64,000 nt of DNA, from NCBI RefSeq assembly GCF_022879595.1, contig NZ_CP084266.1, positions 186,001 to 250,000 on the forward strand, written 5' to 3'. The position numbers and the translations under genes are program-made. Below are positions 29,500-42,820 of this stretch, in pieces. The DNA is from Caballeronia sp. Lep1P3. GTDB lineage: Bacteria > Pseudomonadota > Gammaproteobacteria > Burkholderiales > Burkholderiaceae. Position 1 is the stretch's first letter, and each line of letters begins with the position of its first letter. The notes below the pieces were generated by a model. The model was not told where the DNA came from, searched no databases, and worked only from the letters and a program-made list of their open reading frames with translations.

Positions 29500-30852
29500 A
29501 TGGCAAGCGCAGACACGGTTGTGTCCGGGCATTCGCACGGGCGTCACCACAACAGATGGATTCAGCTGGCGATCGGCATTCTATGCATGGGCCTCGTCGC
29601 CAATCTTCAATACGCGTGGACGCTTTTCGTCGTACCGATGGATGCGAAGCATCATTGGGGTCAAGCGGCGATTCAAACGGCTTTCACCATATTCATCGTC
29701 ACCGAGACGTGGCTCGTGCCGGTCGAGGGCTGGCTCGTCGACAAGTTCGGGCCGAGGCCGGTGGTCATCGGCGGGTCGGTGTGCGCGGCGCTCGGCTGGA
29801 TCATCGACGCCCACGCGACGAGCCTCGCGCATCTGTACATCGCGGCGGTCGTCGCGGGCGTGGGCGCGGGCTGCGTGTATGGGACGTGCGTCGGCACGGC
29901 GCTCAAGTGGTTCCCCGACAAGCGCGGTCTCGCGGCGGGCCTCACGGCAGCCGGTTTCGGCGCGGGCGCGGCCGTGACGGTCATTCCGATCTCGAACATG
30001 ATTCAAAGCTCGGGCTACGAGCATGCGTTCATGTTCTTCGGCATCTTCCAGGGCGTGTGCATCTTCCTGCTCGCGCTGATGCTCGTGCGTCCGAAGCCGC
30101 CCGTGAATATGGTGGCGCCCAAGCGCGTGGTGTCGACGAAGATCGATTACACGACCGGCCAGATGGTGCGCTCGCCGCTCTTCTGGGTGCTCTACCTGAT
30201 GTTCGTATTCGTCGCGGCGGGCGGCGTGATCGCCACCGCGCAGTTCGGCCCGATCGCCAAGGAATACGGCTTCGCGAAGATGCCCGTCAACCTGCTCGGC
30301 GTGACGCTGCCGCTGCTCGCGATGACGCTCTCCATCGACAATCTCTGCAACGGCTTCACGCGTCCGCTGTGCGGTTTCATCTCGGACAGGATCGGCCGCG
30401 AGAACACGATGTTCATCATCTTCCTCGGCGAAGGCATCGCGCTGCTCGGGCTGATGAAGTTCGGGCATCACCCGTATCTGTTCATGCTGTTCGCCGCGAT
30501 GACCTTCCTCTGCTGGGGCGAAATCTTCTCGATCTTCCCGGCGACGTGCGCGGACACGTTCGGCAGCAAGTACGCAGCCGCCAACGCCGGCACGCTCTAT
30601 ACGGCGAAGGGCACGGCGTCGATGCTCGTGCCGCTTGCGTCCGTGCTCGCGTCGATCGGCTCGTGGAATGCGGTCTTCATCACGGCGGCGGTGACATCGA
30701 TCGCGGCCGCTTTCTGCGCCAAGTTCGTGCTCGCACCGATGCGCAAGCGCTGGATCGAGAATACGGTGGCGCAGACGGCCGGCGATTCGCCGATGAACGC
30801 GTCGTTTCAGACGAGTTGGCCGGAAGCGTCGGGCAACACGTCGGTGCAGTAA
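29500..30852 (+). CDS. MFS carrier, oxalate/formate antiporter (OxlT) family
   Basis: A 450-residue major facilitator with twelve likely membrane segments. OxlT-type features include the opening RWIQLAIGILCMGLVANLQYAWTLF, the loop motif DKFGPRP, the segment GFTRPLCGFISDRIGRE and FGSKYAAANAGTLYTAKGTAS, whose lysine corresponds in my reading to the substrate-binding lysine of O. formigenes OxlT. OxlT exchanges oxalate for formate; relatives move other mono- and dicarboxylates. ACGGAGACAGAC precedes the ATG. An frc homologue within 8 kb supports a carboxylate role. Confidence 0.85.
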   Translation: MASADTVVSGHSHGRHHNRWIQLAIGILCMGLVANLQYAWTLFVVPMDAKHHWGQAAIQTAFTIFIVTETWLVPVEGWLVDKFGPRPVVIGGSVCAALGWIIDAHATSLAHLYIAAVVAGVGAGCVYGTCVGTALKWFPDKRGLAAGLTAAGFGAGAAVTVIPISNMIQSSGYEHAFMFFGIFQGVCIFLLALMLVRPKPPVNMVAPKRVVSTKIDYTTGQMVRSPLFWVLYLMFVFVAAGGVIATAQFGPIAKEYGFAKMPVNLLGVTLPLLAMTLSIDNLCNGFTRPLCGFISDRIGRENTMFIIFLGEGIALLGLMKFGHHPYLFMLFAAMTFLCWGEIFSIFPATCADTFGSKYAAANAGTLYTAKGTASMLVPLASVLASIGSWNAVFITAAVTSIAAAFCAKFVLAPMRKRWIENTVAQTAGDSPMNASFQTSWPEASGNTSVQ

Positions 30853-30864
30853 AGGAAGCGGCGC

Positions 30865-31809
30865 ATGCGCGATCGTCCGCTCGACCGCGCGCATGCGCCT
30901 TCGGTCTCGCTGCATCAGTTGAGGCTCTTCATCGCCCTCGCGCGATACAGGAGCTTCACGCGCGTCGGCGATGAATTCGGCATCACGCAATCGGCGGTCA
31001 GCCGCGGCATTCGAGAACTAGAAGACGAAATCGCGCTCCGGCTTTTCGATCGCACCACGCGTCAGGTCGCGCTCACCGATACCGGACGGCGGCTGCTCGC
31101 GCGCCTCGCGCCGCTCGTGGAGGAACTGGAAGCGACGCTGCGGCCTCACCCGCACAATTCGACGGAGCCGGGCGTGGTCAACGTCGCGAGCAGTTGCGGT
31201 CTCACCGCGAGCGTGCTCCCCGCGCTGCTCGCGTCGTGCAAGTCGCGCTTGCCGGAGGTGACCGTCGTCGTGATGGATCGCCCGCAAAACGCCGTGCTGC
31301 AACTCGTCCGTTCGGGCGAGGCGGAATTCGGCATCGTGATCGCGCCGGACAATCTCGACGAACTCGCCGCCGAGCCGCTCTTCGACGACAGCTTCGCCGC
31401 GGTCGCCGGCGCGTCGCACCGGCTCGGGCAAGCGGAACGCCTGAACTGGCAGGACTTGCGCGGCATGCCGCTGCTCCTTCTCGACGACGACACCGGCAGT
31501 CTCGCCGCCATCGAAAACGCGCTGGCGCGCCACGGCATCGCCGGCGCGGTGCGTCAGCGGTTCACGCAACCGGCAGCCGTCGCGCGCATGGCGGAGGCGG
31601 GGCTCGGCATCGGCGTCCTGCCGATGCACGCGCGCGCAATCGCCGAAAGCAGTGCCAGCGCGTTCATCCCGCTCGTACCCGACGAGTCACGCACGCTCAT
31701 GCTCGTCCGCCGTCGCGGCCGCGCATTGCGGGCGAGCGCGGCGCATGTCTGGTCGCACTTCATGGCGTCGTCGACGCAAACTCTCGTTACCTCGCAAGCC
31801 GTCGCCTGA
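30865..31809 (+). CDS. LysR-family transcriptional regulator
   Basis: A 314-residue LysR regulator, distinct from the one at 28144. After a short Arg/His-rich leader comes SLHQLRLFIALARYRSFTRVGDEFGITQSAVSRGIRELEDEI, the winged helix, then a periplasmic-binding-like effector domain ending GLGIGVLPMHARAIAES. It starts 12 bases after the oxlT-like stop, so the two are probably one transcript. Inducer is unknown. The ATG at 30865 or a later in-frame start would give the same HTH. Confidence 0.88.
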   Translation: MRDRPLDRAHAPSVSLHQLRLFIALARYRSFTRVGDEFGITQSAVSRGIRELEDEIALRLFDRTTRQVALTDTGRRLLARLAPLVEELEATLRPHPHNSTEPGVVNVASSCGLTASVLPALLASCKSRLPEVTVVVMDRPQNAVLQLVRSGEAEFGIVIAPDNLDELAAEPLFDDSFAAVAGASHRLGQAERLNWQDLRGMPLLLLDDDTGSLAAIENALARHGIAGAVRQRFTQPAAVARMAEAGLGIGVLPMHARAIAESSASAFIPLVPDESRTLMLVRRRGRALRASAAHVWSHFMASSTQTLVTSQAVA

Positions 31810-31965: not shown

Positions 31966-32979
31966 ATGAAAATCTGCGTGTACGGCGCCGGTGCCATCGG
32001 CGGTTACATGGGCGCGCAACTCGCGCGTGCCGGAGCGGACGTGAGCTTCGTCGCGCGCGGGCCGCATCTCGCCGCGATGCAGGCGAACGGCGTGCGCCTG
32101 CGCATCGGCGGGGAAGAGCACACGGTGAAGGTGCGCTGCACGAACGATCCCGCCGAGCTCGGGCCGCAGGATTACGTCATCATCGCGCTGAAGGCGCATT
32201 CGGTGCCGGGCGTCGTCGACCTGATTCCGCCGCTTCTCGGGCCTGACACGGCCATCGTCACCGCGGTCAACGGCTTGCCTTACTGGTACTTCTATCAGCA
32301 CGGCGGCGAACTCGCCGGCACCACATTGCAAAGCATCGATCCGGGCGGGCGGCAGTGGAGCGTCTTCGGGCCGGAGCGCGCGATCGGCTGCGTGCTGTTG
32401 CCGGCGGCGGAGATCGTCGAGCCGGGCGTGATCGAGCATCACTACGGCAACAAATTCCCGATCGGCGAGCCGAGCGGCGAAACCACACCGCGTCTGCAGG
32501 CGCTGCACGACATCATGGTCGCGGCGGGCATGGAAGCGCCGATGCGCGACAACATCCGCGACGAAATCTGGCTGAAGTTATGGGGCAACCTGTGCTTCAA
32601 CCCGATCAGCGCGCTCACGCACGCCACGCTCGATGTCCTCACGAGCGACCCCGGCACGCGCGCGCTCTCGAAGGCGATGATGCTCGAGGCCAAAGCCATC
32701 GGCGACAAGATCGGCGTGAACTTTCGCGTGGACGTGGAGCGGCGCATCAACGGCGCGGGCGCGGTCGGCGCGCACAAGACGTCGATGCTGATGGACTGCG
32801 AAGCCGGCCGGCCGATGGAAATCGATCCGCTCATCACGGTCGTCCAGGAAATCGGGCGTCTGGTCGAAGTCGACACGCCGATGATCGATGCGGTGCTCGC
32901 ACTGATCAAGCTGCGCGAAGCGGTGAATCAAGGCACAGCCCGCGCCACGGCGTCGCCGGAAGCGCAAAAAGCAGCCTAA
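31966..32979 (+). CDS. 2-dehydropantoate 2-reductase family protein
   Basis: A 337-residue ketopantoate-reductase-like NAD(P)H dehydrogenase. The Rossmann motif KICVYGAGAIGGYMGAQLARAG opens the protein and the C-terminal helical domain has the catalytic-lysine region EIWLKLWGNLCFNPISALTHA. Housekeeping PanE makes pantoate for CoA; in a catabolic cluster, paralogues often reduce or oxidise another 2-oxo/2-hydroxy acid. With a 2-hydroxyacyl-CoA-lyase-like enzyme and CoA-transferase nearby, a 2-hydroxy-acid role is attractive but unproved. CAGGAGACAGACC precedes the ATG. Confidence 0.85.
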   Translation: MKICVYGAGAIGGYMGAQLARAGADVSFVARGPHLAAMQANGVRLRIGGEEHTVKVRCTNDPAELGPQDYVIIALKAHSVPGVVDLIPPLLGPDTAIVTAVNGLPYWYFYQHGGELAGTTLQSIDPGGRQWSVFGPERAIGCVLLPAAEIVEPGVIEHHYGNKFPIGEPSGETTPRLQALHDIMVAAGMEAPMRDNIRDEIWLKLWGNLCFNPISALTHATLDVLTSDPGTRALSKAMMLEAKAIGDKIGVNFRVDVERRINGAGAVGAHKTSMLMDCEAGRPMEIDPLITVVQEIGRLVEVDTPMIDAVLALIKLREAVNQGTARATASPEAQKAA

Positions 32980-33093: not shown

Positions 33094-33315
33094 ATGAGCA
33101 TCGCCTTGTTGGTAGTGGTTGGATTCGCGCTGGTTGCCGTGGGTGTGGGCGTTACGTTTATGATTGCGTCGGCGGTGCCGCAGGACATGCTGCAGCGCGC
33201 GCAGGATCACGGTCGCTTTGCCGGCCTCGCGGCGGACGACCAGAATGGCGGTTCGGGCAAGCGCGTCGTCGCGAACCGGCCGCAAATGGGAAATCAAGCC
33301 ATCAATGCCATCTGA
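33094..33315 (+). CDS. Small single-pass membrane protein coupled to gntR
   Basis: A 73-residue protein with one N-terminal membrane helix (IALLVVVGFALVAVGVGVTFMIA) and a polar, Asn/Gln/Gly-rich tail. I know no family. GGAGCC lies ahead of the ATG and a good promoter is 34 bases upstream. Its last 11 bases overlap the gntR start, so the two should be translationally coupled. It may be a leader gene for gntR or a small membrane partner of the pathway; the sequence does not decide. Confidence 0.6.
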   Translation: MSIALLVVVGFALVAVGVGVTFMIASAVPQDMLQRAQDHGRFAGLAADDQNGGSGKRVVANRPQMGNQAINAI

Positions 33316-34084
33316 TACTCAATCCGTAGACACGCCGGAAGTGCGTCCCGAAGCGCGTCCTGAAGCGCGTCCTGACGTTCGGCCCGATGTCCGTGCGTCC
33401 GGGCTGACGCTTTCGCTGGAGCCGATCAACGCCACGGTTTCGCTGCGCGATCAGGCATACGCGAAGCTGCGGCAAGCCATCGCCGAGGCGGACATCTACC
33501 GTTCGCGCGAGGAAATCCGGCTGGACGAGAAAGAGCTGACGGAAGCGCTGGGCGTCTCGCGCACGCCGATCCGCGAGGCCATGACGCTGCTTGAGCAGGA
33601 AGGCTTTCTGCGCACGGTGCCGCGCCGGGGCGTATATATCTTGCGCAAGACCAAGCGCGAGATCGTCGAGATGATTCACATGTGGGCCGCGCTCGAGAGC
33701 ATGGCGGCGCGCCTCGCGACGCAGCGCGCGACCGACGAGGAAATCGCGCAGCTTCGCCACATGTTCGACAACTTTCGCGACGGCACGCCCGCCGAACACA
33801 TCGACGAGTACTCGGAAGCGAACATCGCGTTCCATTCGGCGATCGTGCGGCTGTCGAAGTCGGAGATCATCTACGACACGATCAAGAATATCTTCACGCA
33901 CGTCCGCGCCATCCGGAAGATGACGATTTCGCAGAGCGACCGCGCGTCGCGCTCGATCGTGGATCACATGCGGATTATCGAGGCGCTGGAAAAGCGCGAC
34001 ACCGAACTGGTCGAGCGGCTCGTGAAGCAGCATTCGCTCGATCTCGCGGCGTTCGTCGAGGCGAATTGCGACTTCCTGGATTGA
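33305..34084 (+). CDS. GntR-family regulator, FCD (FadR) subgroup
   Basis: A 259-residue regulator: winged helix-turn-helix around residues 40-110 (LDEKELTEALGVSRTPIREAMTLLEQEGFLRTVPRRG), then a helical FCD ligand domain with AALESMAARLA, EANIAFHSAIVRLS and the metal-site histidines. FCD regulators usually repress carboxylate catabolism until a small acid binds. The N-terminus has a low-complexity repeat, PEARPEARPDVRPDVR, from near-tandem DNA (33341-33392), unusual for the family. The ATG at 33305 lies inside the small membrane-protein gene. It most likely binds the 16-bp boxes of this locus. Confidence 0.9.
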   Translation: MPSDTQSVDTPEVRPEARPEARPDVRPDVRASGLTLSLEPINATVSLRDQAYAKLRQAIAEADIYRSREEIRLDEKELTEALGVSRTPIREAMTLLEQEGFLRTVPRRGVYILRKTKREIVEMIHMWAALESMAARLATQRATDEEIAQLRHMFDNFRDGTPAEHIDEYSEANIAFHSAIVRLSKSEIIYDTIKNIFTHVRAIRKMTISQSDRASRSIVDHMRIIEALEKRDTELVERLVKQHSLDLAAFVEANCDFLD

Positions 34085-34168: not shown

Positions 34169-35041
<873 letters not shown>

Positions 35042-35051
35042 GTGGCTTCTC

Positions 35052-36242
35052 TCAATGGTGGACGGCGCTGACGATCTTGTCGGCGGCGTCGGCGAGGTTG
35101 TCGGCGGGAATGATGGTGAGGCCGGAGTTGCGCAGAATCTCGCGGCCCGCATCGACGTTCGTGCCGGCGAGGCGCACGACGAGCGGCACGTCGAGCTCGA
35201 TCTCGCGCGCCGCCGCGACGACGCCTTCCGCGATCACGTCGCAGCGCATGATGCCACCGAAGATGTTGACGAGGATGCCTTTGACCTTGGGATCGCGCAG
35301 GATCAGCTTGAACGCGGTCGCAACGCGCTCTCGCGTGGCGCCGCCGCCCACGTCGAGAAAATTCGCCGGCTCGCCGCCGTAGAGCTTGATGATGTCCATC
35401 GTGGCCATGGCGAGGCCCGCGCCGTTCACCATGCAGCCGATGCTGCCGTCGAGCTTCACGTAATTGAGGCCGTGCTTCGCGGCTTCGATTTCCGCGGGAT
35501 CTTCTTCGTCTTCGTCGCGCAGCGCTTCCACATCGGGATGGCGATAGAGCGCGTTGTCGTCGAAATTGAGCTTGGCGTCGAGCGCCATGACGTCGCCGGA
35601 ACCGGTCACGACGAGCGGATTCACTTCCACCACGGAAGCGTCCAGTTCGACGAACGCCTGATACAGCGCCGCGATGAACTTCGACGCCGCTTTCACCTGT
35701 GCGCCCGTCAGACCAAGTCCGAACGCGATCTGCCGCGTGTGGAAGGGCTGAAGGCCGGTCGCCGGATCGATCGCGACTTTGAGAATCTTCTCGGGCGTGC
35801 GATGCGCCACTTCCTCGATCTCCATGCCGCCTTCGGTCGACGCCATGATCGTGATGCGCGAACTTGCGCGATCGACGAGCATGCCGAGATACAGCTCGCG
35901 CACGATGTCGCAGCCTTCCTCGACGTAGAGGCGCTTCACTTGCCGACCGCCGGGGCCGGTCTGCTTCGTGACGAGCACCGACGACAGCATCTGCTGCGCG
36001 TTCGCGCGCACGTCGTCGATGGATTTCACGACGCGCACGCCGCCTTTGCCGTCGGGATCGTTCGTGAAGCGTCCCGCGCCGCGTCCTCCCGCATGAATCT
36101 GCGATTTGACGACCCAGACCGGGCCGCCCAGCGCGTTCGCGGCGTCGGCGGCTTCCTGCGCGCTGAAAGCGACGCGGCCGTGCGGCACCGCGACGCCGTA
36201 CTTTCGCAGCAGCGCCTTCGCCTGATATTCGTGGATGTTCAT
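35052..36242 (-). CDS. sucC: Succinyl-CoA synthetase beta subunit (accessory copy)
   Basis: The 396-residue ATP-grasp beta subunit: [17 protein letters not shown] at the start, [15 protein letters not shown] for nucleotide binding, [27 protein letters not shown], and [13 protein letters not shown] near the end. Length and motifs are normal. CAGGAGACGCA precedes the ATG at 36242. It diverges from the ThDP-enzyme gene over a 352-base gap with two copies of the locus operator core, so both arms may answer to the same GntR protein. A malate- or other acid-CoA ligase activity is possible. Confidence 0.9.
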
Positions 36243-36355
36243 TGCGTCTCCTGTGTCGGCCGGACGCGCGCGCGATGACGTCGGTCCGGTTCGATACAAA
36301 GCGTTTTTGGGATGGCGCGAACGGTTTCGGCAGCAGGAAGCGCACGCGCTGGTAT

Positions 36356-36373
36356 GAGATATATCACATATCA
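36356..36373. promoter_or_regulatory. Variant operator in the sucC promoter region
   Basis: GATATATCACATATC shares the core TATATCACA with the box at 36516. It lies 114 bases upstream of sucC in the divergent gap (36243-36594), which shows no gene. Confidence 0.35.
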
Positions 36374-36515
36374 GGTTCCGCAAAGAAATTCGCGCCGTGC
36401 CGCGATGCAGCAAGGAAGTTAATTGCAGTCCGGATGCACAAGGTGAACGAGGATCGTGCGGTGCGTCACAGGGTTTGTTCCAATGCGATGATCGTTGACT
36501 AATACTGTGTGTGGA

Positions 36516-36531
36516 ATATTGTATATCACAG
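36516..36531. promoter_or_regulatory. Operator box upstream of the ThDP enzyme gene
   Basis: ATATTGTATATCACAG matches the 16-bp box at 13 positions. It lies 15 bases after a TTGACT -35 (36495-36500), so it overlaps the -10 region. Confidence 0.5.
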
Positions 36532-36594: not shown

Positions 36595-38361
36595 ATGTCC
36601 GAAGTCGTCAGCAGCCGCCCGGAAGTCGCCCCAGTCAGCACCACCGCCGATGACACGCTCAAACAGAAAACGCGCGGCGCGGGCGTCATCTCGGGCGGTC
36701 ATCTGGTCGCGCGAGCGCTCAAGAACGAAGGCGTCGACACGATCTTCACGCTGTGCGGCGGCCACATCATCGATATTTACGACGGCTGCGTCGACGAAGG
36801 CATCCGCATCATCGACGTGCGGCACGAACAGGTTGCCGCGCACGCCGCCGATGGCTACGCGCGTCAAACGGGCAAGCTCGGCTGCGTCGTGACGACCGCC
36901 GGCCCCGGCTGCACGAACGCGGTCACGGGCGTGGCCACGGCGTTCCGCTCGGAAAGCCCGATCATCCATATCGGCGGGCAGGGCGCGCTCACGCAGCACA
37001 AGATGGGCTCGCTGCAAGACTTGCCGCACGTCGACATGATGTCGCCGATCACCAAGTTCGCCGCGACCGTGCCGAGCACCGAACGCGTCGCCGACATGAT
37101 CTCGATGGCCGCCCGCGAAGCCTTCAACGGCGCGCCCGGCCCGGCGTATCTGGAGATTCCGCGCGACGTGCTCGACCGCGAAATCGACGTGACGAAGGCG
37201 GTGATTCCGCAGCCGGGGCGCTATCGCGCATCGACGAAATCGGTCGGCGATCCGAACGACATCGAAAAGCTCGCCGATCTGCTCGTGAACTCGGAGCGCC
37301 CCGCGATTCTCTACGGCCAGCAAGTGTGGACGGCGCGCGGCCACGAAGAAGCGATCGCGCTCCTGCGCGGCCTCGACATTCCCGGCTATTTCAACGGCGC
37401 GAGCCGCGGCCTGTTGCCGCCGGGCGACCCGCATCACTTCGACCGCACGCGCTCGCAGGCTTTCGCGAAGGCCGATCTGATCGTGATCGTCGGCACGCCG
37501 TTCGATTTCCGCATGGGCTACGGCAAGCGCATCAGCAAAGACCTGAAGCTCGTGCAAATCGACATGGATTACCGCACGGTCGGCAAGAACCGCGAGATCG
37601 ATCTCGGGCTGGTCGGCGATCCGGGCGCGATACTCGGCGCGGTGCTGCAGGCCGCCAGCGGGCGCCTGAAGAACGACAAGCGCCAGTTGCGCCAGGCATG
37701 GATGCGCGAACTCACCTCCGCCGAGGAAACCGCGACCGCGAAGCTGATGCCGCTCTTCACGTCCGATGCCAGCCCGATCCATCCGTACCGCGTCGCGCAC
37801 GAGATCAACCAGTTCCTGTCCGACGACACGATCTATATCGGCGATGGCGGCGACGTCGTCACGATCTCCGCGCAGGCCGTGCGCCCGCGCCGCCCCGGAC
37901 AGTGGATGGACCCCGGCGCGCTCGGCTCGCTCGGCGTCGGGACGGGCTTCGCGATTGCTGCGGGCCTTGCCAATCCGGAGAAGGAAGTGCTCTGCTACTA
38001 CGGCGACGGCGCGTTCTCCATGACGTCGTTCGACATGGAAACCGCGAACCGCTTCGGCGTGCCGTATATCGCGGTCGTCGGCAATAACTCGGCGATGAAC
38101 CAGATTCGCTACGGCCAGCTCGCGAAGTACGGCGAGGAGCGCGGCAACGTCGGCAATCTGCTGTCGGACGTGCCGTATGGCCGCTTCGCCGAAATGCTCG
38201 GCGGCTACGGCGAGGAAGTCTACGAAGCGTCGAAGATCGCGGGCGCGTTGCAGCGGGCGCGCGAATCCATCGCGAAGACGGGCAAGAGCGCGGTCATCAA
38301 CATCTGGGTCGATCCGAGCGTGTACGCTCCTGGCACGATGGCGCAGACGATGTACAAATAA
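36595..38361 (+). CDS. ThDP-dependent enzyme, acetolactate synthase / 2-hydroxyacyl-CoA lyase-like
   Basis: A 588-residue three-domain ThDP enzyme. The activating glutamate is E78 in [14 protein letters not shown] and the ThDP/Mg motif is GDG at 470-472 followed about 28 residues later by NN. Placement beside an frc homologue suggests oxalyl-CoA decarboxylase, which makes formyl-CoA. However, where Oxc has the catalytic Tyr120-Glu121, this protein reads Leu140-Gln141 ([10 protein letters not shown]), as in acetolactate synthase and 2-hydroxyacyl-CoA lyase (FQE). It may therefore cleave a 2-hydroxyacyl-CoA to formyl-CoA and an aldehyde or ketone. GAGGAGACAAC precedes the ATG. The frc gene begins 35 bases on. 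Confidence 0.8.
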
Positions 38362-38396
38362 AGGTGAACGATAAACGAGAGACTTGGGAGACAGCC

Positions 38397-39656
38397 ATGA
38401 GCAACACCTCGGGCAAGGCACTCGACGGAGTGCGCATTCTCGACTTCACGCACGTCCAGTCCGGTCCGACCTGCACGCAGCTTCTCGCGTGGTTCGGCGC
38501 GGACGTCATCAAAGTGGAGCGCGCCGGCGCGGGCGACATCACGCGGGAGCAACTGCGCGACATTCCCGACGCCGACAGCCTCTACTTCACGATGCTGAAC
38601 CACAACAAGCGCTCCATCACCATCGATACGAAGAATCCCGAGGGCAAGAAGGTGCTCGAGACGCTCGTCAAGAAGTGCGACGTGCTGGTGGAAAACTTCG
38701 CGCCGGGCGCGCTGGATCGCATGGGCTTTACGTGGGAGCGCATTCAGGAACTGAATCCGCGGATGATCGTCGCGTCGGTCAAGGGCTTCGGACCGGGGCC
38801 TTACGAGGACTGCAAGGTCTACGAAAACGTCGCGCAGTGCGCGGGCGGCGCGGCATCGACGACGGGCTTCGACGACGGCCCGCCGACCGTGACCGGCGCG
38901 CAGATCGGCGATTCCGGCACGGGGCTGCATCTGGCGCTCGGCATCGTCACGGCGCTCTATCAGCGCAGCCAGACCGGGCGCGGCCAGAAAGTGCTCGCCG
39001 CGATGCAGGACGGCGTGCTCAACCTCTGCCGCGTGAAGCTGCGCGACCAGCAGCGGCTCGAACGCACCGGCGTCATGAAGGAGTATCCGCAGTATCCGAA
39101 CGGCAAGTTCGGCGAAGCGGTGCCGCGCGCGGGCAATGCCTCGGGCGGCGGTCAGCCGGGCTGGATTCTCAAGTGCAAGGGCTGGGAAACGGACCCGAAC
39201 GCGTACATCTACTTCATCACGCAGGCGCCGGTGTGGGGCGAAATCTGCAAGGTGATCGGCAAGGAAGAGTGGATCGATCATCCCGACTACAAGACGCCGA
39301 ACGCGCGCCTGCCGCGTCTCAAGGACATCTTCGCGGAAATCGAGCGCTGGACGATGTCGAAGACCAAGTTCCAGGCGATGGAGATTCTCAACAAGCACGA
39401 CATTCCGTGCGGCCCGATTCTCTCGATGAAGGAAATCGCCGAAGAGCCGTCGCTGCGCAAGACCGGCACGATCGTGGAAGTGGATCACCCGGTGCGCGGC
39501 AAGTATCTGACGGTCGGCAATCCGATCAAGCTGTCCGACAGCCCGACCGAAGTCGTGCGCTCGCCGCTGCTCGGCGAGCATACGGAAGAAGTCATGGCCG
39601 AACTCGGCTACACGCCTGACCAGATCGCCTCGCTGAGAAGCCTCGGCGCGATCTGA
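38397..39656 (+). CDS. frc: Formyl-CoA:oxalate CoA-transferase homologue (class III)
   Basis: A 419-residue class III (CaiB-BaiF) CoA-transferase closely resembling O. formigenes Frc along its length: [71 protein letters not shown], and the catalytic aspartate D172 in [13 protein letters not shown]. Frc swaps CoA from formyl-CoA to oxalate. The Gly-rich loop is present ([11 protein letters not shown]). GGGAGACAGCC precedes the ATG at 38397. With the upstream ThDP enzyme it would recycle the thioester of formyl-CoA onto the next acid molecule. The acid need not be oxalate. Confidence 0.88.
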
Positions 39657-39746: not shown

Positions 39747-41954
39747 ATGAACAGCACGGTTGTCCAGGAACGCAGCGAAGCAGACGTTTCTTCCACGCAG
39801 ACATCGAGCGTCATTCCGCTGCATGCGGCCGACGCGAAACGCCACGTCGCGGAAATCTTCGAGCGCGTGAGGGCCGAAGGCCGCACGTCGCTGACCGCGC
39901 CCGAAGGCAAGCTCGTCTGCGATGCCTACGGCATTTCGGTGCCGCAGGAAGGCGTCGCGACGAGCGCCGACGATGCCGCGAAGCTCGCGGCGTTCATCGG
40001 CTTCCCGGTGGTGCTGAAGATCGTTTCGCCGGAGATCCTGCACAAGACGGAGGCGGGCGGCGTGCTCGTCGGCGTGAAGAACGAAGCGGACGTGAAGGCG
40101 GGCTTCGCGACCATCATCGAGAACGCGAAGAAGTACGACGCCAACGCGACCATCGTGGGCGTGCAGGTTCAGCAGATGGTCGGCGCGGGGCAGGAAGTGA
40201 TCATCGGCGCGGTCACGGACCCGTCGTTCGGCAAGCTGATCGCGTTCGGTCTCGGCGGCGTGCTCGTCGAAGTGCTGAAGGACGTCACCTTCCGGCTCGC
40301 GCCGGTCACGCGCGACGAAGCCGCGTCGATGCTCGACGGCATCCAGGCCGCCGAGGTGCTGCGCGGCGTGCGCGGCGCGGAGCCGGTGCATCGCGAGGCG
40401 CTCATTACGCTGATCGAGCGCGTGTCGCGGCTGGTGGACGACTTCCCGCAAATCTCGGAGATGGACCTGAACCCGGTGTTCGCGAGTCCGAGTGGCGCGG
40501 TCGCGGCGGACGTGCGCATCGTGATGGACTTCGAGCCGGCCGCGCCGCGCTATCGCCCGACGCAGGAGCAGATCGTCGCGCAGATGAACCGCATCATGAA
40601 GCCCGATGCGGTCGCGGTGATCGGCGCGTCGAACGAGGACGGCAAGATCGGCAACTCGGTGATGAAGAACCTCATCAACGGCGGCTATCAGGGCGCGATC
40701 TATCCGATCCATCCGAAAGCCGACGAGATCATGGGCCGCAAGGCGTACAAGAGCGTGAAGGACGTGCCCGTCGTGATCGACGTCGCCGTGTTCGCGATTC
40801 CGGCGAAGTTCGTCGCGCAAGCGCTGGTCGAAGTGGGCGAGAAGAAGATTCCCGGCGCGGTGCTGATTCCGTCGGGTTTCGCCGAAACCGGCAACCACGA
40901 AGGCCAGGAAGAGATCGTCAAGATCGCGCGTCAGTACGACATCCGCATGATGGGTCCGAACATCTACGGCTTCTACTACACGCCAAAGAATCTCTGCGCG
41001 ACGTTCTGCACGCCGTATGACGTGAAGGGCAAGGCCGCGCTGTCGTCGCAGTCGGGCGGCATCGGCATGGCGATCATCGGCTTCTCGCGCTCGGCGAAGA
41101 TGGGCGTGTCCGCGATCGTCGGTCTTGGCAATAAATCGGACATCGACGAGGACGATCTGCTCACGTTCTTCGAGCAGGACGACAACACCGAGATCATCGC
41201 GCAGCACTGCGAAGACCTGAAGGACGGCCGTTCGTTCGCGGAAGCCGCGAAGCGCGTGTCGAAGAAGAAGCCGGTCGTCGTGCTGAAGGCGGGCCGCACG
41301 AGTCTCGGCGCGCGCGCGGCGAGTTCGCACACGGGCGCGCTCGCGGGCAACGACAAGATTTACGAGGACGTGTTCCAGCAATGCGGCGTGATCCGCGCGC
41401 GCTCGCTGCGCGATCTGCTCGAATTCGCGCGCGGCATTCCGAAGCTGCCGACGCCGAAGGGCGAGAACGTCGTCATCATCACGGGCGCGGGTGGATCGGG
41501 CGTGCTGCTTTCCGATGCGTGCGTCGACAACAATCTCTCGCTGATGACGATGCCCGACGATCTCGATGCCGCGTTCCGCAAGTTCATCCCGCCGTTCGGC
41601 GCGGCGGGCAATCCGGTCGATATCACCGGAGGCGAGCCGCCGTCGACATACAAGAACACGATCAAGCTCGGACTCGAGGACGATCGCATCCACTCGATCA
41701 TCCTCGGTTACTGGCACACGATCATCACGCCGCCGATGGTCTTCGCGAAACTCGTGATCGAAGTGAAGGAGGAGATGAAGGCGCTCGGTATCGAGAAGCC
41801 GATCGTGGCGTCGCTCGCGGGCGACGTGCAGGTCGAGGAAGCGGCCGAATACCTGTACGAACACGGCGTGCCGGCCTACGCCTATTCGACGGAACTGCCC
41901 GTCGCGGTGCTCGGCGCGAAGTACAAGTGGGCGCGCGGCGCGGGCCAGGTCTGA
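39747..41954 (+). CDS. NDP-forming acyl-CoA synthetase, fused beta-alpha (acetate-CoA ligase family)
   Basis: A 735-residue fusion. The N-terminal third is an ATP-grasp domain (VVLKIVSPEILHKTEAGGVLVGV, SEMDLNPVFA); from about residue 285 come the CoA-binding domain (KPDAVAVIGASNEDGKIGNS) and ligase domains with ALSSQSGGIGMAI and the likely phosphohistidine H528 in SSHTGALAG. Most fused enzymes of this family run alpha then beta; here the order is reversed. It would activate a free acid with ATP, priming the CoA cycle run by the frc product. Substrate is not known; acetate, oxalate or a hydroxy acid are all possible. Confidence 0.85.
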   Translation: MNSTVVQERSEADVSSTQTSSVIPLHAADAKRHVAEIFERVRAEGRTSLTAPEGKLVCDAYGISVPQEGVATSADDAAKLAAFIGFPVVLKIVSPEILHKTEAGGVLVGVKNEADVKAGFATIIENAKKYDANATIVGVQVQQMVGAGQEVIIGAVTDPSFGKLIAFGLGGVLVEVLKDVTFRLAPVTRDEAASMLDGIQAAEVLRGVRGAEPVHREALITLIERVSRLVDDFPQISEMDLNPVFASPSGAVAADVRIVMDFEPAAPRYRPTQEQIVAQMNRIMKPDAVAVIGASNEDGKIGNSVMKNLINGGYQGAIYPIHPKADEIMGRKAYKSVKDVPVVIDVAVFAIPAKFVAQALVEVGEKKIPGAVLIPSGFAETGNHEGQEEIVKIARQYDIRMMGPNIYGFYYTPKNLCATFCTPYDVKGKAALSSQSGGIGMAIIGFSRSAKMGVSAIVGLGNKSDIDEDDLLTFFEQDDNTEIIAQHCEDLKDGRSFAEAAKRVSKKKPVVVLKAGRTSLGARAASSHTGALAGNDKIYEDVFQQCGVIRARSLRDLLEFARGIPKLPTPKGENVVIITGAGGSGVLLSDACVDNNLSLMTMPDDLDAAFRKFIPPFGAAGNPVDITGGEPPSTYKNTIKLGLEDDRIHSIILGYWHTIITPPMVFAKLVIEVKEEMKALGIEKPIVASLAGDVQVEEAAEYLYEHGVPAYAYSTELPVAVLGAKYKWARGAGQV

Positions 41955-42040: not shown

Positions 42041-42820
42041 GTGACCACCTGGATTCGTTTCCGCGATGCGGACGGCCGCATCGGTTTCGGCACGCTCGAC
42101 GCGCGTTCGGGCCGCGTCGTGCAGCACGACGGCGCGCTCTTCGACCGCCCGCGTCCGACCGACATCACCTTTCCCGTCGACGACCTGACGCTGCTCGCGC
42201 CGTGCGAGCCGAGCAAGGTCATCGCGCTGTGGAACAACTACTACGCGTTGTCGCAGAAACTCGACAAGGCGCCGCCCGCGCATCCGCTCTTTCTCATCAA
42301 ACCGCCGATGTCGGTGATCGGGCCGGGCGAGTCGATTCGCCGGCCGAAGAACTATCACGGCAAGATCGCGTATGAGGGCGAACTGGGCGTGGTGATCGGC
42401 AAGACGGTGTCGTGCGCGTCGGTCGAAGAGGCCGAGGCCGCGATCTTCGGCTACACCTGCGTGAACGATGTGACCGCCATCGAACTGTTGCAGGAAGATC
42501 CCAACTTCGCGCAGTGGTGCCGCTCGAAGGGCTTCGACACCTTTACGTGCCTCGGACCGGGCATCGTGAGCGGCTTCGAGTGGCGCAGCGCGAGCGTGGT
42601 GACGACCGTGGACGGCGTCGAGCGTCAAAACTATCCGCTCGACGACATGATCTTTTCGCCCGCCGAGCAGGTGAGCCTGCTGTCGCACGACATGACGCTC
42701 GCGCCCGGCGACGTGATCGCGTGCGGGACGTCGATCGGCGTGGGATCGATCAAGGACGGCGCGCGCGTGGACGTGTCGATTGCGGGAATCGGCACGTTGT
42801 CGAATGTGCTGGCCGCGTAG
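42041..42820 (+). CDS. Fumarylacetoacetate hydrolase (FAH) family protein
   Basis: A 259-residue FAH-fold protein. The metal ligands are in YEGELGVVIGKT (Glu) and YTCVNDVTA (Asp region); KSFD-like FCRSKGFDTFTCLGPGIV is also typical. Family members hydrolyse acylpyruvates or decarboxylate oxaloacetate, so this enzyme could remove a 2-oxo-diacid side product or yield oxalate/pyruvate units for the locus. Start is GTG at 42041 with AAGGAC upstream. It is the last gene of the ThDP-frc-ligase series and is closed by a strong terminator. Confidence 0.85.
   Translation: MTTWIRFRDADGRIGFGTLDARSGRVVQHDGALFDRPRPTDITFPVDDLTLLAPCEPSKVIALWNNYYALSQKLDKAPPAHPLFLIKPPMSVIGPGESIRRPKNYHGKIAYEGELGVVIGKTVSCASVEEAEAAIFGYTCVNDVTAIELLQEDPNFAQWCRSKGFDTFTCLGPGIVSGFEWRSASVVTTVDGVERQNYPLDDMIFSPAEQVSLLSHDMTLAPGDVIACGTSIGVGSIKDGARVDVSIAGIGTLSNVLAA

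Follow-up and report, generated by a model that had tools for sequence, protein, structure and literature searches.

Caballeronia sp. Lep1P3 carries a gene pair of which the first member very probably encodes a second kind of oxalyl-CoA decarboxylase, non-orthologous to the known enzyme Oxc and interchanged with it between genomes. The pair lies in the window studied here, a stretch of 64,000 nt (GCF_022879595.1, NZ_CP084266.1, positions 186,001-250,000) belonging to a 6.18-Mb genome assembled as 6 contigs; all coordinates are relative to this window. It comprises an intact open reading frame (ORF) of 588 aa for an enzyme dependent on thiamine diphosphate (ThDP), hereafter the ThDP enzyme, followed after 35 bases by an intact ORF of 419 aa for the formyl-CoA:oxalate CoA-transferase Frc (Table 1). 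We infer the decarboxylase activity from the family relationships of the ThDP enzyme, the composition of its loci, its distribution among genomes and the published growth of strains on oxalate.

Frc is the sole protein of the host genome above the TIGR03253 cut-off, and its top PDB match is E. coli YfdW (623 bits). The ThDP enzyme, compared with family models, fell under every cut-off among the best 25 of the 50 models matched, including those of the acetolactate synthase (AHAS) and Xsc families. Against the Oxc model TIGR03254 it reached 233.5 bits, one third of the cut-off of 739.4; this was also the best TIGR03254 score in the host genome, in which no Oxc was found. Scores of 361.3 bits (cut-off 600) were obtained with the 2-hydroxyacyl-CoA lyase (HACL) model NF058623, of 446 (cut-off 587) with PRK05858 and of 298 (cut-off 538) with TIGR00118, while the nearest solved structures were chains of the actinobacterial 2-hydroxyisobutyryl-CoA lyase AcHACL (PDB 7pt1), at 275 bits. 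A phylogeny with Oxc, HACL and AHAS had been proposed together with the original prediction made for this DNA, and a maximum-likelihood tree was built from 38 proteins including Oxc, AcHACL, TbHACS and the host genome's own ThDP paralogues. The ThDP enzyme belongs to a highly conserved clade supported at 100/100, whose 17 members come from Proteobacteria, from one Acidobacteriota bin and from three plasmids of Actinomycetota. Oxc forms a separate clade, also at 100/100, which does not include TbHACS; AcHACL and the plasmid proteins related to it, as well as the host paralogues, lie outside the clade of the ThDP enzyme. The deeper order of the tree is unsure because long branches were flagged. 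On these scores and this topology we rejected membership of the enzyme in Oxc, HACL, AHAS or Xsc. As to Oxc this agrees with the original prediction, which had set the enzyme apart from Oxc and tied it to a true Frc, close to the oxalate enzyme.

In the alignment with solved Oxc chains, the Oxc motif GDYEE falls on GSLQD, so that Leu140-Gln141 of the ThDP enzyme replace Tyr120-Glu121 of Oxc. The catalytic Glu is kept (Glu78 in RHEQ, Oxc Glu56), Oxc Tyr483 aligns with Asn502, and Ser553 aligns with Gly580/Thr581, the alignment of the tail being approximate. Thus the enzyme shares with canonical Oxc (O. formigenes, E. coli YfdU, M. extorquens) the ThDP fold family, the catalytic Glu, the partner Frc and a short C-terminal tail of similar length, and differs in its clade, in the residues above and in a Pro-Gly-Thr tail instead of Glu-Ser-Gly. 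The missing Tyr-Glu pair had been read correctly in the original prediction, which compared Leu-Gln with acetolactate synthase and 2-hydroxyacyl-CoA lyase; the second comparison holds, as AcHACL has an exact Leu-Gln-Asp, whereas the first is loose. The seven ThDP paralogues of the host genome read Phe-Gln (three), Gln-Gln (two), Met-Gln (one) and Leu-Gln (one) at this motif.

The likeness to AcHACL includes the Gln that holds the thioester oxygen (AcHACL Gln128, matched by Gln141) and an Asp-Gly-Gly-Asp motif. Unlike the lyase, however, the ThDP enzyme has Gln503-Ile504 where AcHACL has Ile492-Glu493, Cys54 where it has Gln41, an apparently shorter C-terminal end at the place of the large lid of AcHACL (31 residues after the last aligned position, vs 58 in the 612-residue AcHACL chain, by sequence alignment) and other gene neighbours. 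Cys54, Glu78, Leu140, Gln141, Asn502, Gln503 and Ile504 were invariant in an alignment of 26 rows. Among 80 loci with a homologue of the ThDP enzyme, collected from named genomes and bins, MNQIRYGQ and TLCGGHI(I/V)D were each found in all 80, while 78 have RHEQ(V/T)AAHA and 76 have APGT(K/M)xQTMYK at the C-terminus; the four exceptions to the last pattern are two loci with APGTRNQTMYK, one truncated at a contig end (L051) and one with another reading (L008). Since G(S/G)LQDLPH was kept in 79 of the 80 loci (the remaining one, L068, reads QGLQDLPH), the Leu-Gln motif is not a chance feature of the window. According to PMC8760513, Glu493 is the acid/base group of the AcHACL lyase reaction, and the decarboxylation step of Oxc requires no such proton transfer. 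At the level of sequence, the absence of the lyase's acid/base residues therefore favours a decarboxylase over a lyase of the AcHACL kind, although this exclusion is not absolute because the AcHACL E493A mutant retains a tenth of the rate (PMC8760513).

The association with Frc is nearly constant. Frc directly follows the ThDP gene in 76 of the 80 loci; of the other four, three end no more than 532 bases after the ThDP gene and one (L032) has a ligase next. In the 48 loci for which at least 8 kb of flanking sequence was available in each direction, homologues were present of Frc in all 48, of the GntR-type regulator in 42, of the oxalate/formate antiporter OxlT in 40, of the fumarylacetoacetate-hydrolase (FAH) family protein in 38, of the PanE-like reductase in 29, of the ADP-forming ligase in 28 and of SucC in 20; a LysR homologue (at least 40% identity) was found in 33. 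The arrangement extends to Actinomycetota plasmids: a Streptomyces plasmid (L082; ThDP enzyme 68% identical) carries, in this order, SucD and SucC (both on the other strand), ThDP enzyme, Frc, ligase and an OFA carrier, and two others (L109 and L110; 65-66% identical) have the order ThDP enzyme, Frc, ligase. Eight canonical oxc loci, all from one genus (g3, Cupriavidus-type) and viewed with 1.5 kb on each side, contain Frc; seven of them also have a FAH homologue of 62-64% identity, a further likeness between the two systems, and the eighth has OxlT.

Several variants of the pair were seen. One genome (G072) has two copies at distant places (L101, L102), and in three Collimonas loci (L055, L056 and L058) two tandem Frc genes, 70% and 85-86% identical to that of the window, follow the ThDP gene. 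On a Phyllobacterium plasmid (L084) the genes near the pair include those of a BhcR-type regulator, of two SucCD-like pairs and of a glutathione-independent formaldehyde dehydrogenase, a setting that hints at a link with glyoxylate metabolism. A different CoA-transferase/ThDP pair occurs on a Bosea plasmid (L104, 2696-5644), where the ThDP protein is 34% identical to that of the window, has the motif Phe-Gln-Glu and adjoins, with its partner, MmgE/PrpD and cyclase genes. Two genomes of the window's genus (L121/G009 and L158/G047) have four Frc matches each above the cut-off.

The distribution of the ThDP enzyme among genomes is largely complementary to that of Oxc. In 200 genomes of the host's family, Frc was found in 105, of which 78 had only Oxc, 22 only the ThDP enzyme, three both and two neither; thus 103 of the 105 have one or the other enzyme (one, G145, being counted as Oxc on a partial gene under the cut-off), and no genome of the 200 had either enzyme while lacking Frc. 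The association of the two enzymes gave a Fisher p of 2e-17, kinship ignored. The window's genus alone accounts for 20 genomes with Frc (Oxc only 6, ThDP enzyme only 12, both 1, neither 1). Comparable results were obtained with 144 genomes from the genus to which P. graminis belongs: Frc is present in 131, accompanied by Oxc only in 92, by the ThDP enzyme only in 24, by both in 13 and by neither in two (p 8e-15, again with kinship ignored), so that 129 of the 131 have at least one of the two, and the 13 genomes without Frc have neither. From the 80 loci we also took 45 isolate loci, leaving out the bins and four isolate loci (L006, L008, L016 and L023), and scanned for Oxc the 43 genomes available behind them; eight of these carry Oxc as well, and no Oxc was found in the 12 that belong to Thiomonas, Collimonas and Alphaproteobacteria.

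Traces of the proposed exchange are seen in the locus itself. We examined 52 loci with Frc genes not beside Oxc, hand-picked rather than random, in genomes without an intact ThDP gene; two further loci, L162 and L163, repeat L116 and L132 and were excluded from the count. Because the loci were chosen for lacking the ThDP gene, the findings are confined to its remnants and to the other genes present. A GntR homologue lies upstream of Frc in all 52, and the Frc is in each case at least 85% identical to the type proper to this locus; OxlT is near in 50 and FAH in 45, and in 50 Oxc is present elsewhere in the genome. Remnants of the ThDP gene remain in five: one (L116) keeps residues 1-195 and the last residues while the middle is gone, two (L128 and L137) retain fragments from each end, and two (L129 and L161) the C-terminal end. 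Another locus without the gene (L100) still has the window's promoter-like stretch, now leading to Frc, and genome G304 has a second Frc locus (L115) without the ThDP gene. The ADP-forming ligase is absent from some of these loci (e.g. L100 and L122); it cannot be tied to the ThDP gene, because it is also absent from many loci keeping that gene.

Moreover, growth on oxalate has been published for five strains in which we found the ThDP-Frc pair and neither Oxc nor a bicupin oxalate decarboxylase: P. kururiensis KP23/LMG 19447, P. graminis C4D1M/LMG 18924 and P. tuberum LMG 21444 (PMC3886118 and PMC13184526), P. phenoliruptrix LMG 22037 (PMC3886118) and C. grimmiae R27/LMG 27580 (PMC13184526). 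The bicupin enzyme (TIGR03404) was rejected as a hidden route, being absent from 10 of 11 genomes tested, including the host and these five strains; the eleventh, a Phyllobacterium, has it. It was the sole alternative route searched for in the 11 genomes, oxalate oxidase and oxalate oxidoreductase lying outside this search. PMC13184526 (2026) describes several oxalotrophic strains of Burkholderia sensu lato without oxc and favours pathways without Frc and Oxc. Four members of its panel (C4D1M, KP23, LMG 21444 and R27) are oxalate-positive, had no Oxc in our searches and carry Frc and the ThDP enzyme; they may be among the oxc-less strains meant there. In P. phytofirmans PsJN an oxc mutant loses growth on oxalate, oxc being single-copy unlike frc and the antiporter (PMC3886118), and C. 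necator no longer grows on oxalate once frc-oxc is deleted and grows less well after deletion of apbA2 (PMC7486775). The alternation with Oxc and the growth data together are hard to read otherwise than as a replacement of one decarboxylase by the other.

In the pathway that we propose, OxlT would import oxalate in exchange for formate, Frc would transfer CoA from formyl-CoA to oxalate, and the ThDP enzyme would remove CO2 from oxalyl-CoA and so regenerate formyl-CoA; a formyl-CoA cycle had already been predicted for the pair, a sensible reading in our judgement. The PanE-like protein, probably an oxalyl-CoA reductase (glyoxylate, CoA-acylating), would divert part of the oxalyl-CoA to glyoxylate for growth. 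This role is proposed by analogy because it is modelled on apbA2 of C. necator (PMC7486775), the likeness being one of family and neighbourhood. Frc, the PanE-like reductase and the logic of the pathway are those of the Methylobacterium/Cupriavidus oxalate module (frc, oxc, panE2/apbA2; PMC7486775), with the ThDP enzyme in place of Oxc. The ADP-forming ligase could perhaps prime the cycle with CoA.

Some observations weigh against the proposed decarboxylase. The enzyme lacks the Tyr-Glu pair with which Oxc accommodates oxalyl-CoA, and alanine mutants of this pair in a mycobacterial Oxc were dramatically less active (PMC7190790). The two enzymes are not strictly exclusive, because 13 of the 144 genomes and eight of the 43 carry both, and four genomes with Frc (G048, G061, G291 and G305) have neither; a divergent Oxc in these was rejected after a search with loose limits, in which the best scores, of 186-196 bits, were in the range of other ThDP enzymes. 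Two of the four (G061 with locus L100, and G291 with L123) keep the locus largely intact otherwise, which may mean that the trait was lost, that the assembly has a gap or that a third enzyme is at work. The association tests must also be read knowing that kinship was ignored and that the draws of 200 and 144 genomes overlap, and that each genome search was limited to scoring a small number of top candidates from a first screen, in some cases no more than six per genome.

The original prediction had favoured cleavage of a 2-hydroxyacyl-CoA instead of, or besides, oxalyl-CoA, the ThDP enzyme releasing formyl-CoA as a lyase and Frc passing CoA to the next hydroxy acid. AcHACL is indeed the nearest solved structure and shares Leu-Gln-Asp, and the formyl-CoA released would supply Frc; nevertheless, we consider this very unlikely. 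The score under the HACL cut-off and the replacement of Glu493 and Gln41 by invariant Ile504 and Cys54 speak against it, the latter with the reservation made above for E493A. No AMP-forming ligase or mutase was present among the eight window genes scanned, unlike in three AcHACL-like plasmid loci, and alternation with Oxc is not expected of a different pathway. In particular, the idea that oxalate is not the substrate does not agree with the OxlT and PanE-like neighbours, with the loss of the gene from its own locus in genomes having Oxc, or with growth on oxalate of strains in which only this ThDP enzyme was found. A side activity on 2-hydroxyacyl-CoAs may exist. Even less support is found for a biosynthetic acetolactate synthase, or general ThDP enzyme, standing beside Frc by chance, a reading that we regard as extremely improbable: database names of the relatives are acetolactate synthase or sulfoacetaldehyde acetyltransferase, and the score against PRK05858 reached 446 bits, but the AHAS and Xsc cut-offs were missed among the models considered, the clade is separate and fully supported, and the gene adjoins Frc both in nearly all loci and on the three Actinomycetota plasmids.

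A decarboxylating carboligase was also considered, in which oxalyl-CoA is decarboxylated and the one-carbon carbanion passed to glyoxylate or another carbonyl, giving tartronyl-CoA or a similar 2-hydroxyacyl-CoA. Condensation of formyl-CoA with aldehydes has been described for HACL enzymes and for engineered Oxc. PanE would provide glyoxylate within the locus, and the SucCD-like and ADP-forming ligases are without an assigned role. Yet the genome has a separate glyoxylate-carboligase-like gene (L094) with His-Val replacing His-Glu, whose Val we take to be a mark of Gcl; plain decarboxylation must occur anyway because Frc still needs formyl-CoA, and the extra step is not called for by any data, so that we hold this for highly unlikely, slightly more so than the lyase. 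A broader scheme, which we rate as unlikely too, if a little less so than either, would have a separately evolved oxalyl-CoA decarboxylase both regenerate formyl-CoA and condense the one-carbon unit with glyoxylate or formaldehyde to tartronyl- or glycolyl-CoA, the SucCD-like and ADP-forming ligases and Frc processing the products; this would be a natural branch of one-carbon assimilation on oxalate.

The genes around the preferred decarboxylase and its Frc are listed in Table 1; the OxlT-like, PanE-like, FAH and downstream ligase genes are present as had been described, according to the family-model search. The SucC-like protein scored 590 bits against the succinate-CoA ligase beta model (cut-off 370) and 557.5 against that of malate-CoA ligase beta (cut-off 604). 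The near-palindrome in the divergent promoter region is a candidate operator for GntR or another regulator: with up to 3 mismatches it has 1 match in the 64 kb, where 0.06 were expected, and 6 of 100 shuffles contain one. Short pieces of it (also about 36520-36531) occur in the 400 bases preceding the ThDP gene in 39 of 75 relatives, a count made with no chance control.

Table 1. Features around the ThDP-Frc gene pair (window coordinates).
Feature	Position	Strand	Basis
OxlT oxalate/formate antiporter	29500..30852	+	passes TIGR04259, 631 vs cut-off 335 bits
LysR-type regulator	30865..31809	+	ORF and reading of its sequence
PanE/ApbA-like reductase	31966..32979	+	family match and neighbourhood
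GntR-type regulator	33305..34084	+	ORF and reading of sequence; start chosen by us, listed ORF from 33164
SucD-like CoA ligase alpha subunit	34169..35041	-	family-model search
SucC-like CoA ligase beta subunit	35052..36242	-	family-model search
Palindrome-like ATGAGATATATCACAT, near-palindrome ATGTGATATATCACAT, candidate operator	36354..36369	.	divergent promoter region
Promoter-like stretch TTGACT...TGTATATCACAG	36495..36531	+	upstream of ThDP gene; read by eye
ThDP-dependent enzyme, proposed non-orthologous oxalyl-CoA decarboxylase	36595..38361	+	Glu78, Leu140-Gln141, Asn502-Gln503-Ile504; family models, tree, alignment, loci
Formyl-CoA:oxalate CoA-transferase Frc	38397..39656	+	passes TIGR03253, 737.6 vs cut-off 504.2 bits
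ADP-forming acyl-CoA ligase	39747..41954	+	under cut-offs of all six matched models
Fumarylacetoacetate-hydrolase (FAH) family protein	42041..42820	+	family-model search

We found no account of a novel, alternative or second oxalyl-CoA decarboxylase in the literature searched, in which subscription journals were thinly covered, and no source naming this ThDP gene; the accessible parts of the papers on Burkholderia Q208 and Collimonas hold no data on it. Oxalate users are often sought in genomes through frc and oxc (PMC13184526). If the ThDP enzyme does decarboxylate oxalyl-CoA, this approach overlooks oxalate users in soil Proteobacteria and in some Actinomycetota and Acidobacteriota bins, and the oxalotrophs described as lacking oxc would gain a concrete candidate gene. 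It would also offer a new scaffold, lacking the active-site pair of Oxc, for one-carbon biocatalysis, where Oxc and HACL are now engineered. It would further account for the growth of some bacteria on oxalate in the absence of the textbook oxc, and be a case in which a pathway has exchanged an enzyme of one family for one of another while the locus still shows remnants of the change.

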